Source: Amoeboaphelidium occidentale (Eukaryota; Aphelidiomycota; Aphelidea). From it: a stretch of 64,000 nucleotides of DNA. Of the stretch, positions 24,777-48,108 are shown one piece after another. Both the position numbers and the translations under genes were made by a program. The stretch lies in the NCBI GenBank assembly GCA_023515795.1, contig JALGPX010000006.1, positions 9,358-73,357 of the forward strand. Reading direction: 5' to 3'. Every line of letters starts with the position of its first letter. Position 1 is the stretch's first letter. Below the pieces are notes generated by a model, which was not told the DNA's origin, ran no database searches, and saw only the letters and a program-made list of their open reading frames with translations.

Positions 24777-27700
24777 ATGGCCGCCCAATCTAGTATTAGT
24801 ATCACAGTTTTATCTTCAGTAACTTACATGGATACAGCTAATTTCGAGGACTTAGCAGAGGTAGAGAACATATCAGATTTGGATCAAGTTGTAGATTTAC
24901 TTCAGACACGATTTGAGTCTAAAGATTACTTTGCTTTCATATCAAACAATGTTCTTTTGTATGTTAATCCTTACACTGAACTCGATATTTTCACTGACGG
25001 TTACATAGAAAGCTATGCAGCAGCAGATCACAATGCAAGAGATCGATTCCCAGCTCATGTGTATGAGACCGCGGAAAGAGCTTATAGGGAATCGTTACAT
25101 GATGGGGTTCGTGCCGTGATTCTTTCAGGAGAGTCGGCTTCTGGCAAAACGTACCTCCGAAACCAGGTGCTCCAATATTTGGCATTTCGTGGAAGTGTAG
25201 ATGATCGGTTTGAAGTGGAAGACAAACTAAATGCTGTCATATTGTTGCTTGAAGCCTTCGGAGGTGCAAGAACGGTTGTAAATCAGTCAAGCTCTCGATA
25301 TGGATCGTTTTTTGAGTGTTACTTTGACACAGATGGTTATATATCAGGTGCTTCGTTACAATGCTTTTACCTAGAATCGAACAGGGTTGTGGAACAGTTT
25401 GAAGGAGAATCAAACTTCTTTGTGTTTTACCCGTTATTACAAAGTTTGAATGAGCGACAGTTATCAGAGCTTGGTATAGGGCCAGACCTGAAATATCTCA
25501 TGAGCTGGAAATCTTTGGAAACTAAAGGTCCGTCTATAGAGAGTATAAGGGAAGCTATGTCACTGTTAGGGATCGATACAAAATTACAAGAGAAATGCTT
25601 TGATATTCTATTGGCTGTTCTATTGCTAGGAGAACTTGATATAAGTGATCAATTAATTTACAGACAACAACTGGATATCCTTTCTGTTTTGCTCCAGGTT
25701 AAACTCGCGGATCTAGAAAATGTTCTAAATAAGAGCGATAAAATCGAAATTGCATGCAGGTCTATGGCGATTACTCTGTACAGATCCTGCTTCAAGTATC
25801 TCATAAGGATGATGAACGAAAGCCTGGCGGCCGCATCAAAGAATTCTAGAGTTTGTATTTTTGACGCGCCAGGTTTTGAAAATGTTTCATTGAACAACAT
25901 GGAACAGTTCTGTATTAATTTCTGCGACGAGGTACTGCACAATTTATTGAACCAGATGCTTTTCATTGACGAGCAGCTTGAGTATGAGAATGACGGTCTT
26001 CCTTGGGAAAAAATCGCATTTTTCGACAACTCTAAATGTGTTCACTTGCTGGCTGGTAGCAATTTCGGAGACTTATCCAAATCCGCCATGGCACCAAAAG
26101 ATGGGAATTCTGTTATAGGATTGCTCAACGCGATATCCACTGAAGCCAAAAGTATTGGAGATGCAGAGAGCCTGTTGGTAGAGCGAATAGCCGGTTTGAA
26201 ACTGGCCAACGAAGTCGTGTATTCGCAACAAGGAAATGGAGTGTTTTTCGGCGTGAAACATTTTGCAGGAGATTGTCTATATGATGCCGAAGATTTGGTT
26301 AATTCTAACGTGCTTCCTTACAAGTATCATTTTGACGATACGTTTAAACGCTCTGATAATTTGTTCTTGCGTGGCGCATTCGATTTCTCTACTAGAATCG
26401 ATGACTTGGACAGTGTGGACCCAACAAAACCAGCTTTTGTAGTTTCTCGTTTCTATGAACCGTTTCAGGCCATCTTAAGAGAATTGGGTGGAGCTTCTTG
26501 CTCTTTTGTTCGCTGTGTCAAATCGAACGACATGTTTGAGCCTAATGGATATAATCTGGACTGTGTAAGAAATCAACTCGAATACGGAAATATTTTGGAA
26601 TGCATTCAGATAAAATCGAGGGGTTATGCTTTTCGCTACACATTTGTGGAATTCTTTCATGAATACGGCTTGGTTCTTCTCACTAAAGAAGCGATGGCTT
26701 CGAGGATTAGAAAAGGCAAGAAGGATAAGTATGCAACCAGAACGGATTTGCAGCCTAAATGTGGCGACATTCTTGAGCGTGCAGCTTCCGAAGTCAAGAA
26801 ATTGGGTTTAGAACCTTTCAAGTATCATTTGGGTTTGAATCATGTGTATCTCCATCAGACAGCAGGCGTTATATTAGACTATCTGGTTCTTTTACGAAAA
26901 GACTTTTGGGCAACCCAAATTCAAAAGGTTTGGAAAGGACACAAAGTTCGCAATGTAATCGGAAGACGACTGAAAGTAAGAAAAGAGCAAAAATTGAATG
27001 CTGCTCGGGCCATACAGAGGTGTTTTAAAGCGTTCCTGTTTAGGAAGAGGTTCAAAAACTTGAAGCAGAATATTGAAAAAATCAAGTTGGAAAGAGGAAT
27101 TGTGGAAACGCCTCCTGCAAGTGCCAACTCTGCTTGGGAGGCGCTTTCTGTTAACTCCGCTATAGAGCGCGAGCCAAAATACCAAGTGCCGTTAGAAAAG
27201 AGAACAAGTGGCTTACCAGAGCTGATCGCTTGGATAAGGTCTTACTGCATTGATTTCGATTTGAGCATGGACGCAACTGATCAAGAATTTGTTGATATGA
27301 TTTCAAACGGCAAATTGCTTCTTAAACTGGCTACATCTATTTATCCCCAACTTCAAGATTCGTTTCATCGAGCTGCCACGGATTCTAGTTCATCTGACCG
27401 CGTATCATTGTTCTTGGACACATGCGAGAAGTTTTCTGACCTTGGCCCGGCCAGGATTTTCAGTTTCTCAGACTTGGCTTCCTCAGGAAAGCATTCGAAG
27501 GTTATCAATGGCCTATTACAACTTAAAGAGCAGCATGAAAACAATAACTTTGCTCAAATTGACTTCACTCCTGTTGATGTCACTAATCTAAATCAGCTGA
27601 AAGAAAACAGACGAAACTCTATTATTGAGCTGATCAAAACAGAAGAATTGTTTGTTGACGCCCTTAATGTTATTGCCGATTTCAGAAAATACTTGACCAC

Positions 27701-29834
27701 CAGAAAAGTTGTACTGAATCCCGCAGAAATCAAGATACTCTTTGGCAACATTGATGAAATGTTGGACTTTCATGAGCTATTTGTTTTACAGCAGCTCAAA
27801 GTCCCGTTTAGAAATGCTGATCACAGAGAGACGATAAAAGTTGAGCTCGACCAAATTCAAGCTGGAAAAATATTCAAATCAATCCTTGAAAGTACTGATT
27901 TGGATAAGCCTAGTATGATAAATACACACACTAGGTATTTGGAGAACTGCAAGGCATCAAGGATGTTCATTTTTAGTAGGAAAGACACTGGGGCATTGAA
28001 AACTTATATCGACGCTTTTCAAAATAGTGCAGAAATGGGCGCTGGAACGTCCTTGGTTACATTCTTATCCAAACCGATTCAAAGAATTTCTGAGTATTTA
28101 ACAAGCTTGAAAGAAATTGATGGTTACACGAGTAGCGCTCATCCAGACAAGATCTACTTGGCAGAAGCCATCTCCAGATTGCAAGACCTTGAAGCGCTTG
28201 CTATGGAGAAGAAAAAGATGCTGAATGATATTGAACTGTCTGAAAAAGCTCATGAAGCTGAAATGAGAATGCAAAACTCTACTCGAGAACCTGAACCGCA
28301 TATGCACAGACCTAACGTGCAAGAACAAAGCTATGATCGTGGAATAACGCAAATAAGTCCTCAAACCGATCAAAGCTACGACAATCGAGTGGTGCACGAC
28401 GGATCGAATGTTTACGATATAGGCGGCTTGATTAGCCCATACAGGAAGTTCATTTGCAAAGGTTCAGTTTGGGAGGTGATAAACAGCAATCTAGTGAAAG
28501 AGCGTTCCTTGTTTCTGTTTTCTGATATCATGATAATCGCCAAAGAACTTTTGGACGGAGAGAGCAATGGAAATTCCAGCTTTCTGGTGAAGACAATAGT
28601 AGATATGTCGGAAATCGCATTGAAGATAGAGAGGAACGATGATCCTCACGAAGTTATGATGCAAGCGCCATCTTTGAGGAAGGCTGTTTACAAGTTTGAA
28701 TCCGATCCAAAGAAGGGTATCACATATCTGATTGAAAAGGGAATATTGACTGCAAAACCGTCAGCCGTCGCTTTGTTCTTGTATAGAACGGCAGAGCTTA
28801 ACAAGAGGCAGCTTGGACGTTTCCTGGGAGCACCCGACAATATCGCGATTCTTAAGGCGTTCTTGGATTGTTTTGATTTTTCATACATGCGGATTGATGA
28901 AGCGTTGAGGCTGTTTTTCCTGTCGTTCCGACTACCTGGTGAACCAAGAGTTATCGATTCTATTTTGGGAACATTTGCTGAGCGATTTGTTGAAACGAAT
29001 CCGAAATTTATCTCGTCTGCAGAGTTGGCATTGAAACTTACGTTTGCAATTCTGATGCTTAACGCTGATGTGCACAGAAAGACAGAAAATCCTAATCCAG
29101 TTCGTATGCGCTTGGATGAGTTCGTTCAGAAGTTTAGAGTTCATGATCCTTTAAGTTCAATCTCAGACGCTTCCCTTCACGATATATATCACTCCATTAG
29201 GCTGGAAAAGATTGCTGTTGCTGCTGAACAAGAAGATGAAGAATCAGATCAAATTTCGATCAACTTCTCTCCGATTCCTTTCCGAGTTACCTACAAAGAG
29301 TTCAGTGTTCCAATTAAGGTCAGCATTCCGAATCCAGATCCTGAGTTACGCATCAAGATCTTTCCGCACAAAGGCGTCAAGGTCACTCCAAGTGTCTTGA
29401 CATTTGAGAGCTCTTCAACTGCGACATTCAGAATTACTGGCGATGTTCTTGGAAGAAAAGGAATATCTTTCTTGAAGCTTGGACAGAATGCGAAATACTA
29501 CAAAACATCATCTGTTCCTTTTGGAAAATTTATTGTTGTTGAGCCGCCTTTTATGAAGCATGTATTTCAATTGAAAACCAAGAAAAGAGATTCTTCTAAT
29601 GGAAAACGCGTATCTTACATGTTCTCTGTTGCCAATGAGCCACAAAAGGATAACTGGTGTCAACAAATAACAAACGTACTCTATGCTTTAGATGAGGATC
29701 TTGAGCTTGATTACGGTCTACCTGTTCACGAAGGAGTTGGACTTGATATTATTCATGAGTTTGTGACATCCGAAGAGGGAAGTCCCATTGTACCGACTGA
29801 TTCTAAATTGTTGAAATCACTAAATAGATATTGA
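24777..29834 (+). CDS. Myosin motor fused to IQ, CH, RhoGEF (DH-PH) and SEC7 domains
   Basis: One intronless frame of 1685 residues. Motor, about 20-710: P-loop GESASGKT (canonical GESGAGKT), switch I VVNQSSSRYGSFFE, switch II FDAPGFENVS, relay EQFCINFCDEVLHNLLNQ, and SFVRCVKSNDMFEPNGY near the converter. Two IQ motifs lie at about 713-765. A CH-like domain at about 812-920 (LPELIAWIRSY, NGKLLLKLA, SKVINGLLQLK) is followed by a DH helix bundle starting IIELIKTEELFVDALN (about 945-1150) and a PH domain (about 1215-1300). SEC7 at about 1303-1456 keeps the catalytic Glu in FRLPGEPRVID. The C terminus has a beta-rich region and a PH-like end (KDNWCQQI). Predicted role: actin-based transport coupled to Rho and Arf activation. 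Confidence 0.9.
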   Translation: MAAQSSISITVLSSVTYMDTANFEDLAEVENISDLDQVVDLLQTRFESKDYFAFISNNVLLYVNPYTELDIFTDGYIESYAAADHNARDRFPAHVYETAERAYRESLHDGVRAVILSGESASGKTYLRNQVLQYLAFRGSVDDRFEVEDKLNAVILLLEAFGGARTVVNQSSSRYGSFFECYFDTDGYISGASLQCFYLESNRVVEQFEGESNFFVFYPLLQSLNERQLSELGIGPDLKYLMSWKSLETKGPSIESIREAMSLLGIDTKLQEKCFDILLAVLLLGELDISDQLIYRQQLDILSVLLQVKLADLENVLNKSDKIEIACRSMAITLYRSCFKYLIRMMNESLAAASKNSRVCIFDAPGFENVSLNNMEQFCINFCDEVLHNLLNQMLFIDEQLEYENDGLPWEKIAFFDNSKCVHLLAGSNFGDLSKSAMAPKDGNSVIGLLNAISTEAKSIGDAESLLVERIAGLKLANEVVYSQQGNGVFFGVKHFAGDCLYDAEDLVNSNVLPYKYHFDDTFKRSDNLFLRGAFDFSTRIDDLDSVDPTKPAFVVSRFYEPFQAILRELGGASCSFVRCVKSNDMFEPNGYNLDCVRNQLEYGNILECIQIKSRGYAFRYTFVEFFHEYGLVLLTKEAMASRIRKGKKDKYATRTDLQPKCGDILERAASEVKKLGLEPFKYHLGLNHVYLHQTAGVILDYLVLLRKDFWATQIQKVWKGHKVRNVIGRRLKVRKEQKLNAARAIQRCFKAFLFRKRFKNLKQNIEKIKLERGIVETPPASANSAWEALSVNSAIEREPKYQVPLEKRTSGLPELIAWIRSYCIDFDLSMDATDQEFVDMISNGKLLLKLATSIYPQLQDSFHRAATDSSSSDRVSLFLDTCEKFSDLGPARIFSFSDLASSGKHSKVINGLLQLKEQHENNNFAQIDFTPVDVTNLNQLKENRRNSIIELIKTEELFVDALNVIADFRKYLTTRKVVLNPAEIKILFGNIDEMLDFHELFVLQQLKVPFRNADHRETIKVELDQIQAGKIFKSILESTDLDKPSMINTHTRYLENCKASRMFIFSRKDTGALKTYIDAFQNSAEMGAGTSLVTFLSKPIQRISEYLTSLKEIDGYTSSAHPDKIYLAEAISRLQDLEALAMEKKKMLNDIELSEKAHEAEMRMQNSTREPEPHMHRPNVQEQSYDRGITQISPQTDQSYDNRVVHDGSNVYDIGGLISPYRKFICKGSVWEVINSNLVKERSLFLFSDIMIIAKELLDGESNGNSSFLVKTIVDMSEIALKIERNDDPHEVMMQAPSLRKAVYKFESDPKKGITYLIEKGILTAKPSAVALFLYRTAELNKRQLGRFLGAPDNIAILKAFLDCFDFSYMRIDEALRLFFLSFRLPGEPRVIDSILGTFAERFVETNPKFISSAELALKLTFAILMLNADVHRKTENPNPVRMRLDEFVQKFRVHDPLSSISDASLHDIYHSIRLEKIAVAAEQEDEESDQISINFSPIPFRVTYKEFSVPIKVSIPNPDPELRIKIFPHKGVKVTPSVLTFESSSTATFRITGDVLGRKGISFLKLGQNAKYYKTSSVPFGKFIVVEPPFMKHVFQLKTKKRDSSNGKRVSYMFSVANEPQKDNWCQQITNVLYALDEDLELDYGLPVHEGVGLDIIHEFVTSEEGSPIVPTDSKLLKSLNRY

Positions 29835-36974: not shown

Positions 36975-39900
36975 ATGACGACAAACTCATTTCCTACATC
37001 GCCTGTACAACAGGAGATTCCAGCGGAAGTTCAATTAAAACTTCAAAAGTGGAAAGAAACTTTGGCCTCGCCGACTGATATTCTGCTTCCGACTGATTTT
37101 CCACGCCCTTTGCCGCTGCGTGTAATTGAAGCTTCAAAGAAAATAAGCTTGCCTGATTCACTTTGCAACGCTGTGTTGCGATATGCCTTAAACTTTACCG
37201 CGTCTGCAGGAGATGATGAAAATGGGCTCGAGGCCACTCCTTTTAGTATTGTTATGGCAGCATTCGTTGTTTTGGTGCAGAGATATTCTGCTGAAGATGA
37301 TATTTCGATTTGCACTTGTACTGTGGATAACAATCCTTTAATTCTAAGGCTCAGGCTGTCTGAAGACGAAACTTTTGATTCTCTTGTACAGAAGATCTTG
37401 CTTAAAGATGAAGAAAGTTTGTCTAACGAAGTTCCGTTTGAATTGTTACTTCACGAACTTCAAGCTGGCGGTGATCATGGAAAGTCTCTGGTTTCATGTT
37501 TGACTAGATTGCGCGTATTTGATATTGCGTCGTCTAATACGTCATCTTTGGGTAATTTTGCTGGTTCTTCTGATGTTGCTTTGTTCGTATCGCATTCAAC
37601 AGAAAGAAAGTCTGCGGATATTGCCAGCAAGAGAAGAAAGATTCTTCCAATTAATTTGAACGTGGTCTACAATTCTGTTCTTTTCAATGAAGAAAGAATT
37701 AATGTCATGTTTGAGCAGTTGATCAATGTTTTGCAATTCTACTGCGGAGGTAAAGGCAACCAAAGTATCAAGAATGTTTCTCTGGTGTGTTCTTCGTTAG
37801 GAAATACAATCGATCCTCTAGAAAACATTTGTGCTTGGGGTAAAGAATGGCCTGGCGCGATTACTGATATTTTCATGAAGAATGCTGCTTCGTTCCCTGA
37901 CAGAGTGTGTCTTGTTGAGAGCATTCAGAAATCTGATGATAAAAGTTATGACAGAACTTTTTATTACAAGACAGTTGATTTGAGGTCGAGTCTATTGGCG
38001 CACTACATGATCCAGGAGGGAATCAAACCAGGAGATGTTGTGGTAGTTTACGCTCATCGTTGCGCTGAACTTGTTATTTGCATTATGGCTATTTTGAAAG
38101 CTGGAGCTGTTTTCTCAGTCATAGATCCACAATACCCTGTTCCAAGGCAATTAGTGTACCTCTCTGTTGCTCGTCCTAAGGGTCTTCTTAGATTGAAAAA
38201 GGCTTGTCCTATTGATAAAGAAGTTGAAAATTATGTGAATTCAGGGAAAGATTTTGAATTGAAGTTCAATGCGTCAGAAATTGAGCTCCTTGATGATGGT
38301 ATGTTGAAGGTTAAAAGTTCGTTCCAACAAAAAGTGGACTCTGTATTCAATTCAGAAACACGCGACGTTAAATTTCAGTTCCCTGTATTAGGTCCAGATT
38401 CTATTGGAACACTTAGCTTTACATCTGGATCAACTGGAATTCCAAAAGGAGTTCTGGGTAGGCACTTCTCATTGACGAATTTTTACCCATGGATGAAGGA
38501 AAGATTTGGTTTGGGCGAAAAGGATCGTTTTACAATGCTTAGTGGTATTGCTCATGATCCTATTCAAAGAGATATTTTCACTCCTCTATTTTTTGGAGCT
38601 GAATTAAGAATCCCAACCGCTGATGATATTGCTCAGCCAGGAAGACTAGCGGAGTGGATGGCCACTCAAGGATGTACCGTGACTCATTTAACTCCAGCTA
38701 TGGGGCAATTGCTGTCAACAAATGCTTCAACTTCGATTCCAAGCTTAAGAAATGCATTCTTTGTTGGAGACATATTGACAAAGAGAGATGTTGTGAGACT
38801 GCAGTCATTGGCTCCTTATGTTCTCATTATTAATATGTATGGAACCACTGAAACCCAGAGAGCAGTTAGTTACTATGCAGTGGAAAACAAATCAACTGGT
38901 ATCGCTCATGAAAAAGATGTTTTACCGGCTGGTGTCGGAATGAAAGGCGTACAGCTACTTGTTGTAAACAAAGAAAGACAAATGTGCGGAATTGGCGAAA
39001 TTGGCGAAATCTACGTAAGAAGCTTTGGCCTAGCTGAAGGATATTTGAACAAAGAAGAAGATACAAGAGCTAAATTTGTATCAAACTTTTTTGTGAGTGA
39101 GGATGGAAAATTGCAAGATAACGCTAGTATCGATTCCAAAGACAAGGGGCCAAGAGACAGATTGTACAAAACTGGAGATTTAGGAAGATACAGACCAGAT
39201 GGAGTTGTAGAATGTTGTGGAAGAGCTGACGATCAAGTCAAAATCAGAGGATTTAGAATTGAACTAGGTGAGATTGATATGCACTTAAGTCAGCACGAAT
39301 TTGTACGGGAGAATGTGACGTTAGTCAGAAGAGATGCTTACGAAGAAAAAACATTGGTATCTTACTTTGTCCCAAATAAGCAAAGTATTAGAAAGAGATT
39401 CGAGAAAGAAGACGTAGATCCTGCATTGATCATATCTGATATCAGAAACTTTCTTAAACAAAAGTTGGCCGCGTACAGTATTCCTTCGAGTAAGATTTTT
39501 TGATTCAATACTTAACCTCTTAGTTTTCGTACCTTTGGCGAGAATGCCATTGACTCCCAATGGAAAAGTTGATAAGAATGCCTTACCTTTCCCTGATACT
39601 GTCATTCAAAATATGGCAGAGTCAGCATCTTCACAGATTGAACAGATGACAGCCATGGAAAACAAGTTGTCAGCCATTTGGTCTCAAATCTTGTTTCCAA
39701 AACCTGGCGGAGGCTTTGTGAGAAGAGTCTTACAAGAGGATAACTTTTTTGATATTGGCGGCCATTCTATTCTAGCCACAAGATTAATTTTTCAAATAAG
39801 ACAGCAGCTCAAGATGGATGATACGACTTTGCCTTTGAACTTGTTGTTTAAATTCCCTACCATCAAGAGTTTAGCCGGTGAAATTGAAAAGAGAACAAGC

Positions 39901-41397
39901 TTCAATATTTTGGAGAACATTGAACTTTCATCCAAAGACAAAGGTTCCAAGGAAGGACTTGATGTCGGTAAAACTGAAATTGATTTATCTTCAGAGCTTC
40001 ATTTGGACGAAAGCATTACGCCAAGACCAGATCAAAGAATGGTGTTTGACTTACCTGGAAGATCTAGGCCAAATGGAGAGTTTGAACCGCAAACCATTTT
40101 CCTCACTGGAGCTACTGGCTTCTTGGGATCTTTCATTTTGCGGGAACTATTGTTATCATTCCCTTCTTCTGTAGTGTATTGTCTTGTAAGAGGCGAGAAC
40201 GAAGAAAAGGCATGGAATCGTCTCTGTCAAAGTATGGAAGGTCATTTGATTTGGAAAGGCGATTATGTCAAAAAGTCTGACATTGAGTCGATGAAGGCAA
40301 GAACCAAGGTCGTTCCAGGAGATCTTGCCAAGCCATTCTTTGGAATAGGAGATGAGAAAGAGTTCCTAGAATTCTCATCTAAAATTGATTGCGTAGTTCA
40401 TAATGGTGCTCTTGTTCATTGGGTATACCCTTATGATAAGTTGAAGGCTGCGAATGTCAGCGGAACTATTGAAGCAATGAAGATGTGTTTGGCTGGCAAT
40501 GTCATCAAGCCTTTAGTGTTTGTTTCTTCCACTTCTGTATTGGATACTCCATATTACACTGAACAAAAGACTACGGCAGTTTTGGAATCGGATGATTTAG
40601 AGGGCAGTAGAAGAGGTTTGTCCAGTGGTTATGGCCAGAGTAAATGGGTTGCAGAAAAGTTGTTAATGTTGGTGAGAAAGCGACGTGTGCAGGGTAAGGC
40701 CCTTCCTGTTTCGATAGTTCGTCCTGGTTATATTCTGGGTGACTCAAAGTCAGGAGTTGGAAACGCCGATGACTTCTTATGGCGTTTGATCAAGGGTTGT
40801 CTGCAGCTTGGCCAAGTGCCTGTTATTCTCAATGCAATTAACGCATGTTCTGTTGATTTTGTTGCCAAGAGTGTAGTCCAAGTTGTAAAGAAAGGCGAAG
40901 AATCAGCCAAAAGAACAGTATTCCATGCCTGGAATGATCAAAATGTCCGTTTCAGTGATTTCTTTGCATCATTAATTGCTTTTGGTTACGGAAAATTAAA
41001 TGAAGAAGACAAAAATAACGAATACCCTGGATTGTCAAAGTTAGAATTTAGGCCTTATCTTGAATGGAGAGACAACCTGATGGAATTGACATTAACTGGA
41101 AAGGACAACGCTCTATATCCACTATTGCATTACGTACTTGATGATCTTCCTACATCCACAAAAAGTCCTGCATTGGATATGAGAAATTTGCTGTGGGCGT
41201 TGGAAGGGAGCGACGTTATTAACGGTCGCCTTGTTGGAAACGAGGGCGATTCTGAAGAAAAGGTCGCAAGAACTCTCATGTACAAGTATCTTAGCTACAT
41301 GTGCACCGTTGGATTTTTGCCATGGCCTCCTGGGAAATCCCAGCAAACGCATGGTACAATGAAAGAAGCAAAACTGTTGACGCGAACAGGTCAATAG
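36975..41397 (+). CDS. LYS2: L-2-aminoadipate reductase (alpha-aminoadipate lysine pathway)
   Basis: Exons 36975..39489 and 39524..41397 (intron 34 nt) give 1462 residues. Order: a condensation-like N-terminal region, the adenylation domain (TLSFTSGSTGIPKGVLG near 479, LYKTGDLGRYRPDG near 731, QVKIRGFRIELGEID near 755), a carrier domain with the phosphopantetheine Ser in DIGGHSILATRL (near 914), and an NADPH reductase domain (IFLTGATGFLGSFILREL near 1030, Y-x3-K in GYGQSKWVAEK). It reduces alpha-aminoadipate to the semialdehyde after activation by LYS5. The pathway is largely a fungal trait and is the best lineage clue in the window. It converges on ILV6, 24 bp apart. Confidence 0.96.

Positions 41398-44542: not shown

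Positions 44543-48108
<3,566 letters not shown>

Follow-up and report, generated by a model that had tools for sequence, protein, structure and literature searches.

A divergent myosin head joined to CH, DH and Sec7 domains in a single chain from Amoeboaphelidium occidentale, with Sec7 inserted into a predicted split PH domain

A 64,000-nucleotide stretch of the Amoeboaphelidium occidentale genome (contig JALGPX010000006.1 of assembly GCA_023515795.1, positions 9,358 to 73,357; hereafter the window) contains an open reading frame (ORF) that encodes a myosin head, an IQ lever, a CH domain, a DH domain, a Sec7 domain and PH sequence in one chain. This chain had been proposed from the letters of the sequence in an original prediction, and it is confirmed here. 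The protein is a divergent myosin head and light-chain lever fused to a CH-DH-PH module ordered as in Vav and PIX, whose PH domain appears to be interrupted by a Sec7 domain of cytohesin type and a β-rich module. The explanation that we favour, and consider narrowly probable, is that it would act as an actin-tethered dual guanine nucleotide exchange factor (GEF) in which Arf and Rho activation are coupled through one shared PH domain.

The ORF runs from ATG to TGA over 1685 aa in a single exon with no stop inside the frame, and its ATG is directly preceded by an in-frame TGA, in agreement with the prediction of an uninterrupted, intronless frame of about 5 kb. Pfam matched Myosin_head to residues 24-646 (E 4e-96, 323.3 bits, cut-off 33.3), RhoGEF, the DH domain, to residues 949-1138 (2.9e-24, 86.7 bits, cut-off 27.6) and Sec7 to residues 1298-1479 (4.3e-53, 180 bits, cut-off 22). 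The predicted domain list was right, and the DH and Sec7 domains, on whose detection by profiles the prediction had been staked, were both found over their cut-offs. Among solved structures, the best match of the head in a phmmer search of the PDB was 7kch_A (4.9e-61), with class I, X and VIIa myosins close after. The DH domain was nearest to Tiam1 (3.4e-10), with PIX among the matches, and the Sec7 domain was nearest to ARNO (8.7e-32). The IQ profile matched two stretches at 7e-4 and 19.6 bits, just under its cut-off of 20.3.

Relatives carry the same chain. A search with the tail (residues 780-1685) scored 7999 candidates and kept five. Four of these (P0001-P0004) repeat the head-DH-Sec7 order of the window protein, and P0005 is a Mon2/Sec7/BIG-type protein. 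The profile scores and the four matching chains together rule out chance. P0001 is a 1292-aa fragment, about 99% identical to the window protein, and because it has 17 differences it appears to be a separate sequence from the same or a very close species. Its frame is open in the same way from residue 394 through to the C-terminus, which argues against a sequencing error hiding a stop, and its second IQ motif is over the cut-off (24.0 bits). P0002, P0003 and P0004 are divergent orthologues (34-38% identity). P0002 is an EukProt entry recorded as 'putative Myosin VIIA', with the prefix Partr, which we take to denote the aphelid Paraphelidium tribonemae; it has a transcript-style name and spans the whole chain, which on the evidence at hand argues against separate genes. 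The P0003 head lacks its N-terminal third (profile positions 237-678 of 679). The CH domain (residues 816-919) was under its Pfam cut-off in the window protein (2.3e-4, 21.8 bits, cut-off 26) and in P0001, P0002 and P0003, and over it in P0004, the fifth of the headed chains. We take it as real because a family profile from five sequences found solved CH domains in the PDB (transgelin-2 at 3.3e-9, calponin at 3.5e-8, Vav-3 at 3e-5 and ARHGEF6 at 5.3e-5).

Searching again with residues 909-1685 retained 53 of 7999 candidates. Among them were P0006 (DH-PH-Sec7, 751 aa), P0007 from Amoeboaphelidium protococcarum (PH-Sec7, with neither head nor DH in the record), P0008 from Paraphysoderma sedebokerense (CH-DH-PH-Sec7, a headless record that may be short, its CH match beginning inside the profile), P0009-P0011 (PH-Sec7-PH, two Umbelopsis records and one unnamed) and the very divergent P0012 (PH-Sec7). 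No DH match was obtained in P0009-P0011 at E up to 0.1. The remaining matches, P0001 aside, were other Sec7 proteins; P0005 and P0013-P0057 have Sec7 with neither myosin head nor RhoGEF by their listed Pfam domains and were kept out of the alignments. The A. occidentale assembly itself (11.3 Mb in 204 contigs) contains 11 myosin-head matches at eight loci, 20 RhoGEF matches and eight Sec7 matches at six loci. No second copy of the tail was found in it: the tail queries matched only themselves at high score, and other matches involved only their Sec7 and DH segments. The gene thus looks single-copy.

The original prediction had placed a separate PH-like end after Sec7. This was not borne out, and the C-terminal sequence instead appears to complete the PH domain that begins after DH. 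Ahead of Sec7, Pfam SOS1_NGEF_PH matched residues 1223-1305 (2.5e-7, 31.3 bits, cut-off 27.7). At the C-terminus, Pfam PH matched residues 1560-1635 at E 0.05 and 14.6 bits, far under its cut-off of 25.1. When the two halves were joined in their natural order, one match was obtained that covered SOS1_NGEF_PH positions 7-105 of 106 (43.2 bits). The first half alone scored 29.2 bits (positions 6-71), and adding a piece of the β module gave no gain (29.3 bits, 7-74). The second half excised alone matched only PF00169 positions 67-104 of 105, and the terminal match likewise begins at profile positions 61-67 in P0003 and P0007-P0011. By itself, the sequence linking Sec7 to the second half gave no PH match. 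Joined halves were also continuous in P0004 (20-105), P0007 (8-105) and P0008 (6-102). A PH profile was also built from the genome's own RhoGEF loci, using seven of the eight taken from the 20 matches (L018 was dropped, with a stop 108 aa after its DH). This profile scored the joined halves at 40.8, the first half at 28.2, the second half at 11.8 and the first half with the β-module piece at 28.0; when the second half was shuffled 200 times, the best score was 32.6 and 40.8 was never reached.

The AlphaFold model for residues 780-1685, made from 11 sequences (mean pLDDT 79.1, pTM 0.50), is consistent with one interrupted domain. Five strands precede the insert (1224-1236, 1239-1248, 1251-1257, 1269-1276 and 1280-1283), the insert consists of helices at 1290-1476 (Sec7) and then strands at 1503-1568 (β module), and three strands (1584-1589, 1596-1601 and 1613-1617) and a helix (1621-1639) follow. 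At the level of predicted secondary structure, the first five strands, two or three of the later ones and the helix would suffice for one PH domain cut after its fifth strand. A second complete PH domain at the C-terminus was rejected, with contrary signs given below: the joined halves give one PH match, the lone end corresponds to the last third of the domain, and the strand count of the model fits one domain. Together, the profiles, the shuffle control and the model suggest that the terminal PH sequence completes the PH domain associated with DH, into which Sec7 and a β module of ~100 aa are inserted.

The β module lies between Sec7 and the second PH half in all eight sequences aligned and is 35-52% identical to its seven relatives. 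As a profile it drew no PDB match up to E 10, and no Pfam family was matched by more than one of the eight members. By these searches it is an undescribed module. One sequence searched singly matched a phage Hoc-like protein (E 0.62), and this match was not used.

The prediction of a Sec7 domain with its catalytic Glu held. E1389, in FRLPGEPRVID, aligns with the Glu of FRLPGEAQKID in ARNO. It is invariant in all five rows of the head-DH-Sec7 alignment, that is, in the window protein and P0001-P0004, and is kept in P0006. By sequence, the position is Asp in P0007, P0008 and the poorly aligned P0012, and Lys in P0009-P0011, where the second Sec7 motif is altered too. Work on ARNO has shown that Lys in place of the catalytic Glu abolishes exchange and that Asp weakens it. 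By analogy, full Arf GEF activity is expected in the headed group and P0006 alone. The Umbelopsis-type proteins (P0009-P0011), having Lys at this position, are probably conserved pseudo-Arf-GEFs with PH halves flanking Sec7.

Conservation is concentrated in the PH-Sec7-β region. Among the window protein, P0002, P0003 and P0004, identity was 51-56% in the first PH half, 62-70% in the second, 45-52% in Sec7 and 42-51% in the β module. Identity in the head was 26-31% over residues 265-646 and 28-35% over residues 24-264 where both rows cover them (P0003 overlaps the latter in 13 columns only). Because the core is 42-70% identical and the head 26-35%, constraint lies on the PH-Sec7-β core, with head, CH and DH changing much faster. 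In an 11-row tree of the PH-Sec7-β-PH region, the window protein groups with P0002, P0003, P0006, P0004 and P0007 at 87/96, short of the 95/80 mark that the tool sets, and P0004 and P0007 pair at 99/96. Outside this group lie the Umbelopsis-type rows and, both on long branches, Paraphysoderma and P0012. The position of headless P0007 beside headed P0004 would reflect loss of the head and DH, or a short gene model. Headless records are known from a blastoclad and from Umbelopsis, so the head probably joined a headless module at a later stage, unless these records are incomplete.

The myosin head is the lowest-scoring one in its genome (323 bits, with gene pieces summed per gene), and against a profile of five of the genome's heads it scored 306 bits, compared with 312 bits for an insect class XVIIIa myosin; class XVIIIa myosins have lost most motor activity. 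The other seven myosins have canonical ATPase motifs, save one whose frame begins within the P-loop, so that the P-loop is canonical in six of the seven. The window head keeps the key residues in changed surroundings: Lys and Thr of the P-loop, Asn, Ser, Ser and Arg of switch I, and Asp, Gly and Glu of switch II. They are also kept in P0004 (GESGSGKT, NANSTRFM and DFFGFE), and P0003, which covers only switch II of the three motifs, keeps that one. In a 24-row tree, the four heads (window, P0002, P0003 and P0004) group together at 81/84, below the 95/80 mark, on long branches outside the class I, II, V and MyTH4-FERM heads of the genome; their end branches are 1.66-3.24, compared with a median of 0.8, and the tool warns that long branches may join falsely. 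Classes X, XV and XXII, MyoM, the partial P0001 and the VIIa-type rows P0058, P0061, P0062, P0063, P0064 and P0066 were left out of this tree, and the C94 myosin entered it by its second exon piece only. The placement proposed by the original prediction yields a weakly supported grouping of the four heads; we claim no class for the window head and regard it as divergent and fast-changing. A search with the motor alone kept 20 of 8000 candidates, nine of them VIIa-type insect myosins at 26-29% identity, and missed P0002-P0004; as it scored only the candidates sharing most words, it does not show that orthologues are absent elsewhere.

Tail domains also set the window protein apart from most myosins of the genome. 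A myosin II rod, DIL, TH1 or MyTH4-FERM domain is present in six of the other seven, and a Pfam scan found none of these in the window protein. The seventh (L028, G000:C160:2821-10500) is a 1809-aa frame with a canonical head and no tail domain recognised by Pfam. Two MyTH4-FERM myosins (L029 and L030, on G000:C60 and C112) are present within this compact 11.3-Mb genome. According to passages of PMC6299283, Paraphelidium has extra myosin classes, XV and XXII, that were lost by eumycotan fungi except chytrids.

The arrangement suggests how such a protein might work. The head and lever would tether it to cortical actin and, in species with an intact ATPase, might move or sense strain, while the single shared PH domain would dock it on membrane carrying phosphoinositide and/or Arf-GTP. 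Sec7 would load an Arf and DH a Rho-family GTPase at the same spot. With Sec7 in a loop of the DH-associated PH domain, both catalytic domains would sit on one membrane platform, and an actin-binding head joined to that platform would make a local Arf-plus-Rho activator at cortical actin. The outcome may be local actin assembly and membrane remodelling, for example in phagocytic engulfment; aphelids eat algae by phagocytosis, and the phagocytic role is suggested by this biology. Passages of PMC6299283 discuss phagotrophy and a rich myosin set in Paraphelidium. Extended to a myosin-headed family, seen so far in aphelid-like sequences, the proposal would be that one phosphoinositide-binding PH domain serves both DH, which it abuts, and Sec7, which it encloses, that Arf and Rho activation are mechanically coupled, and that some heads are pseudo-motors, either nucleotide-gated or inert actin tethers. 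We put this wider proposal forward tentatively, as nearly evenly balanced.

Several observations weigh against the dual-GEF explanation. Identity among the orthologues is little higher in DH (30-38%) than in the head, and in CH it is lower (20-30%). CR1 Glu and CR3 Lys and Gln form the catalytic surface of DH domains, and the CR3 motif KPIQR is intact in the window protein alone: Gln is replaced in P0002, P0003, P0004, P0006 and P0008, and Lys is Arg in P0003, P0006 and P0008 and Ile or Leu in P0002 and P0004. Since CR3 varies in this way, the relatives may have little or no Rho GEF activity. In P0002, two residues required for ATP hydrolysis in myosins are missing, the Arg of switch I and the Glu of switch II (DRSCSGIG and DLPGYR). 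For the split PH domain, the joined halves of Umbelopsis P0010, which has long loops, matched as two pieces. Halves joined in reversed order also gave two pieces, which still summed to 36.5 bits, and the argument is therefore the single continuous match rather than the total score. In full-length scans of the window protein and P0001, the terminal match began as early as profile position 27 (27-104), and in P0012 it covered 17-73. The pTM of the model, only 0.50, bears on the packing of the two PH halves.

The conservation pattern is what would be expected if the protein were an Arf GEF only, an actin-bound Sec7 factor regulated by its PH domain, in which DH is a structural remnant: conservation is highest in PH, Sec7 and the β module and not in DH, CR3 varies among the orthologues, and the Umbelopsis-type proteins give no DH match. 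However, DH is well over its Pfam cut-off in P0001-P0004, P0006 and P0008 as well as in the window protein, the CR1 Glu (E956 in the window protein) is kept in all six rows of the 11-row alignment in which DH is recognised, and the window DH combines it with KPIQR. We regard this reading as rather unlikely. The original prediction had favoured a genuine motor that carries cargo along actin and uses Rho and Arf activation to bud or dock that cargo. The key ATPase residues of the window and P0004 heads would fit such a motor, as would the converter-like stretch and IQ lever, but the head is weakly conserved and on long branches, it changes faster than the PH-Sec7 core, the tail gives no Pfam match to the domains found in six of the other seven myosins, and P0002 has lost ATPase residues. 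Because of the fast change of the head and the losses in P0002, movement on actin is unlikely as a function common to the family, and the transport reading is not supported; we hold it to be unlikely for the window protein.

Two readings concern the architecture itself. PH domains stand beside Sec7 in cytohesins, and the terminal PH sequence could be a second, independent domain too divergent to see, giving a DH-PH followed by a Sec7-PH. In addition, yeast Syt1 has a PH-like domain besides Sec7, according to passages of PMC5091641, and weak Pfam PH matches occur at both places, the terminal one extended in the full-length scans of the window protein and P0001. Against this stand the restricted match of the excised terminal piece and its late start in P0003 and P0007-P0011, the continuous match of the joined halves, and the lack of a PH match in the stretch from Sec7 to the second half; two independent PH domains therefore seem improbable. 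An artificial joining of a myosin gene to a GEF gene, in assembly or gene prediction, would be in keeping with the headless models in P0006, P0007 and P0008. Yet the frame is uninterrupted, and P0001 and the three divergent orthologues carry the same chain across the joints. We therefore rejected a chimera or frame error, which is barely credible. Against these alternatives, an actin-tethered dual GEF with one shared PH domain remains the explanation that we prefer.

The individual modules have known counterparts. The order CH-DH-PH is found in Vav, PIX and fungal Cdc24, and in Vav the CH domain restrains DH. The window protein likewise has CH before DH-PH; its CH domain matches those of Vav-3 and ARHGEF6 (a PIX) and its DH domain matches PIX. 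As in Dbl proteins, DH is followed by PH, here split and complete once joined. Unlike Vav, PIX and Cdc24, the protein has no SH2, SH3 or PB1 domain in the Pfam scan, its PH domain is interrupted by Sec7, and a myosin head stands in front. Since the scan found no SH3 or SH2 module, the protein is, by its domains, ordered like Vav and PIX without being a member. With cytohesin/ARNO, BRAG (IQSEC) and Syt1 it shares a Sec7 domain, closest to ARNO, with a catalytic Glu and a PH partner. In contrast to cytohesins, no contiguous PH domain comes straight after Sec7: the β module follows directly, and the PH domain encloses Sec7 and is shared with DH. Paraphysoderma P0008 and Umbelopsis P0009 and P0010 have the same PH halves around Sec7 and the β module, but these records are headless, and the Umbelopsis proteins lack a DH match and have Lys at the Glu position. 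Other PH domains are split, as in PLC-gamma, syntrophin and PH1 of myosin X, and we know of none interrupted by Sec7. In the open-access literature no Sec7-interrupted PH domain was found, the lone matching paper being an unrelated table entry.

To our knowledge, Dictyostelium MyoM, the precedent named in the original prediction, contains no Sec7 or CH domain. The precedent is real: passages of PMC1634994 describe MyoM as an orphan myosin whose tail is reported to have a putative RhoGEF. Compared by description, the two proteins share an orphan-type head and a RhoGEF tail; these passages mention no Sec7 or CH, whereas the window protein has both. In line with the prediction that no described myosin carries Sec7 and CH, no description of a myosin with Sec7 was found among the listed titles and opening lines of abstracts from 5.39 million open-access papers. 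By term look-up, the main texts of two large myosin surveys (PMC3942036 and PMC5583752) and of PMC6299283 contain neither Sec7 nor RhoGEF. If P0002 is a Paraphelidium protein, Supplementary Data 5 of PMC6299283 may include it, since the head-domain search of that study should retrieve it.

Table 1. Features of the myosin-Sec7 gene, in window coordinates.
Feature	Position	Strand	Details
Whole ORF	24777..29834	+	1685 aa, single exon, in-frame TGA just upstream
Myosin head	24846..26714	+	residues 24-646; PF00063, 4e-96
P-loop GESASGKT	25128..25151	+	residues 118-125; GESGAGKT in the genome's other myosins
Switch I NQSSSRYG	25281..25304	+	residues 169-176; N(N/D)NSSRF in the other 7 myosins
Switch II DAPGFE	25863..25880	+	residues 363-368; DI.GFE in the other 7 myosins
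Lever, IQ-like motifs 1 and 2	26910..27056	+	residues 712-726 and about 741-760; Pfam IQ
Calponin-homology (CH) domain, taken as real	27222..27533	+	residues 816-919; family profile; helical in model
DH (RhoGEF) domain	27621..28190	+	residues 949-1138; Pfam 2.9e-24; helical in model
PH, first half	28434..28652	+	residues 1220-1292, five strands; SOS1_NGEF_PH positions 6-71 of 106
Sec7 Arf-GEF domain, inserted in PH	28668..29213	+	residues 1298-1479; Pfam 4.3e-53, ARNO 8.7e-32
Predicted catalytic 'glutamic finger' codon, E1389	28941..28943	+	aligned to ARNO
β-rich module	29244..29540	+	residues 1490-1588; strands in model
PH, second half	29544..29699	+	residues 1590-1641; last strands, C-terminal helix, conserved Trp

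Elsewhere in the window, two adjacent ORFs at 36975-41397 (+), one of 842 aa with an AMP-binding match and a weak Condensation match and the next of 617 aa with PP-binding and NAD_binding_4, together resemble a fungal α-aminoadipate reductase (LYS2) interrupted by an intron or a frame change. A 905-aa frame at 44543-47260 (-) contains the C-terminal part of an isocitrate/isopropylmalate-type dehydrogenase and an aconitase, and we take it to be perhaps a homoisocitrate dehydrogenase-homoaconitase (LYS12-LYS4) fusion. The presence of both in the same window suggests that lysine-pathway genes are clustered here.

Arf-to-Rho signalling normally passes between separate exchange factors. Here both exchange factors, a myosin head and one shared PH domain stand in one chain that is kept across several divergent sequences. 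If the proposal is true, nesting Sec7 in the PH domain of a DH-PH module would couple two GTPase switches in a new manner. The headless relatives in a blastoclad and in Umbelopsis would offer a view of a module gaining, or losing, a myosin head and an Arf-GEF active site. If the owners of the headed proteins are aphelids, the protein would be a candidate component of the engulfment machinery near the base of the fungi.

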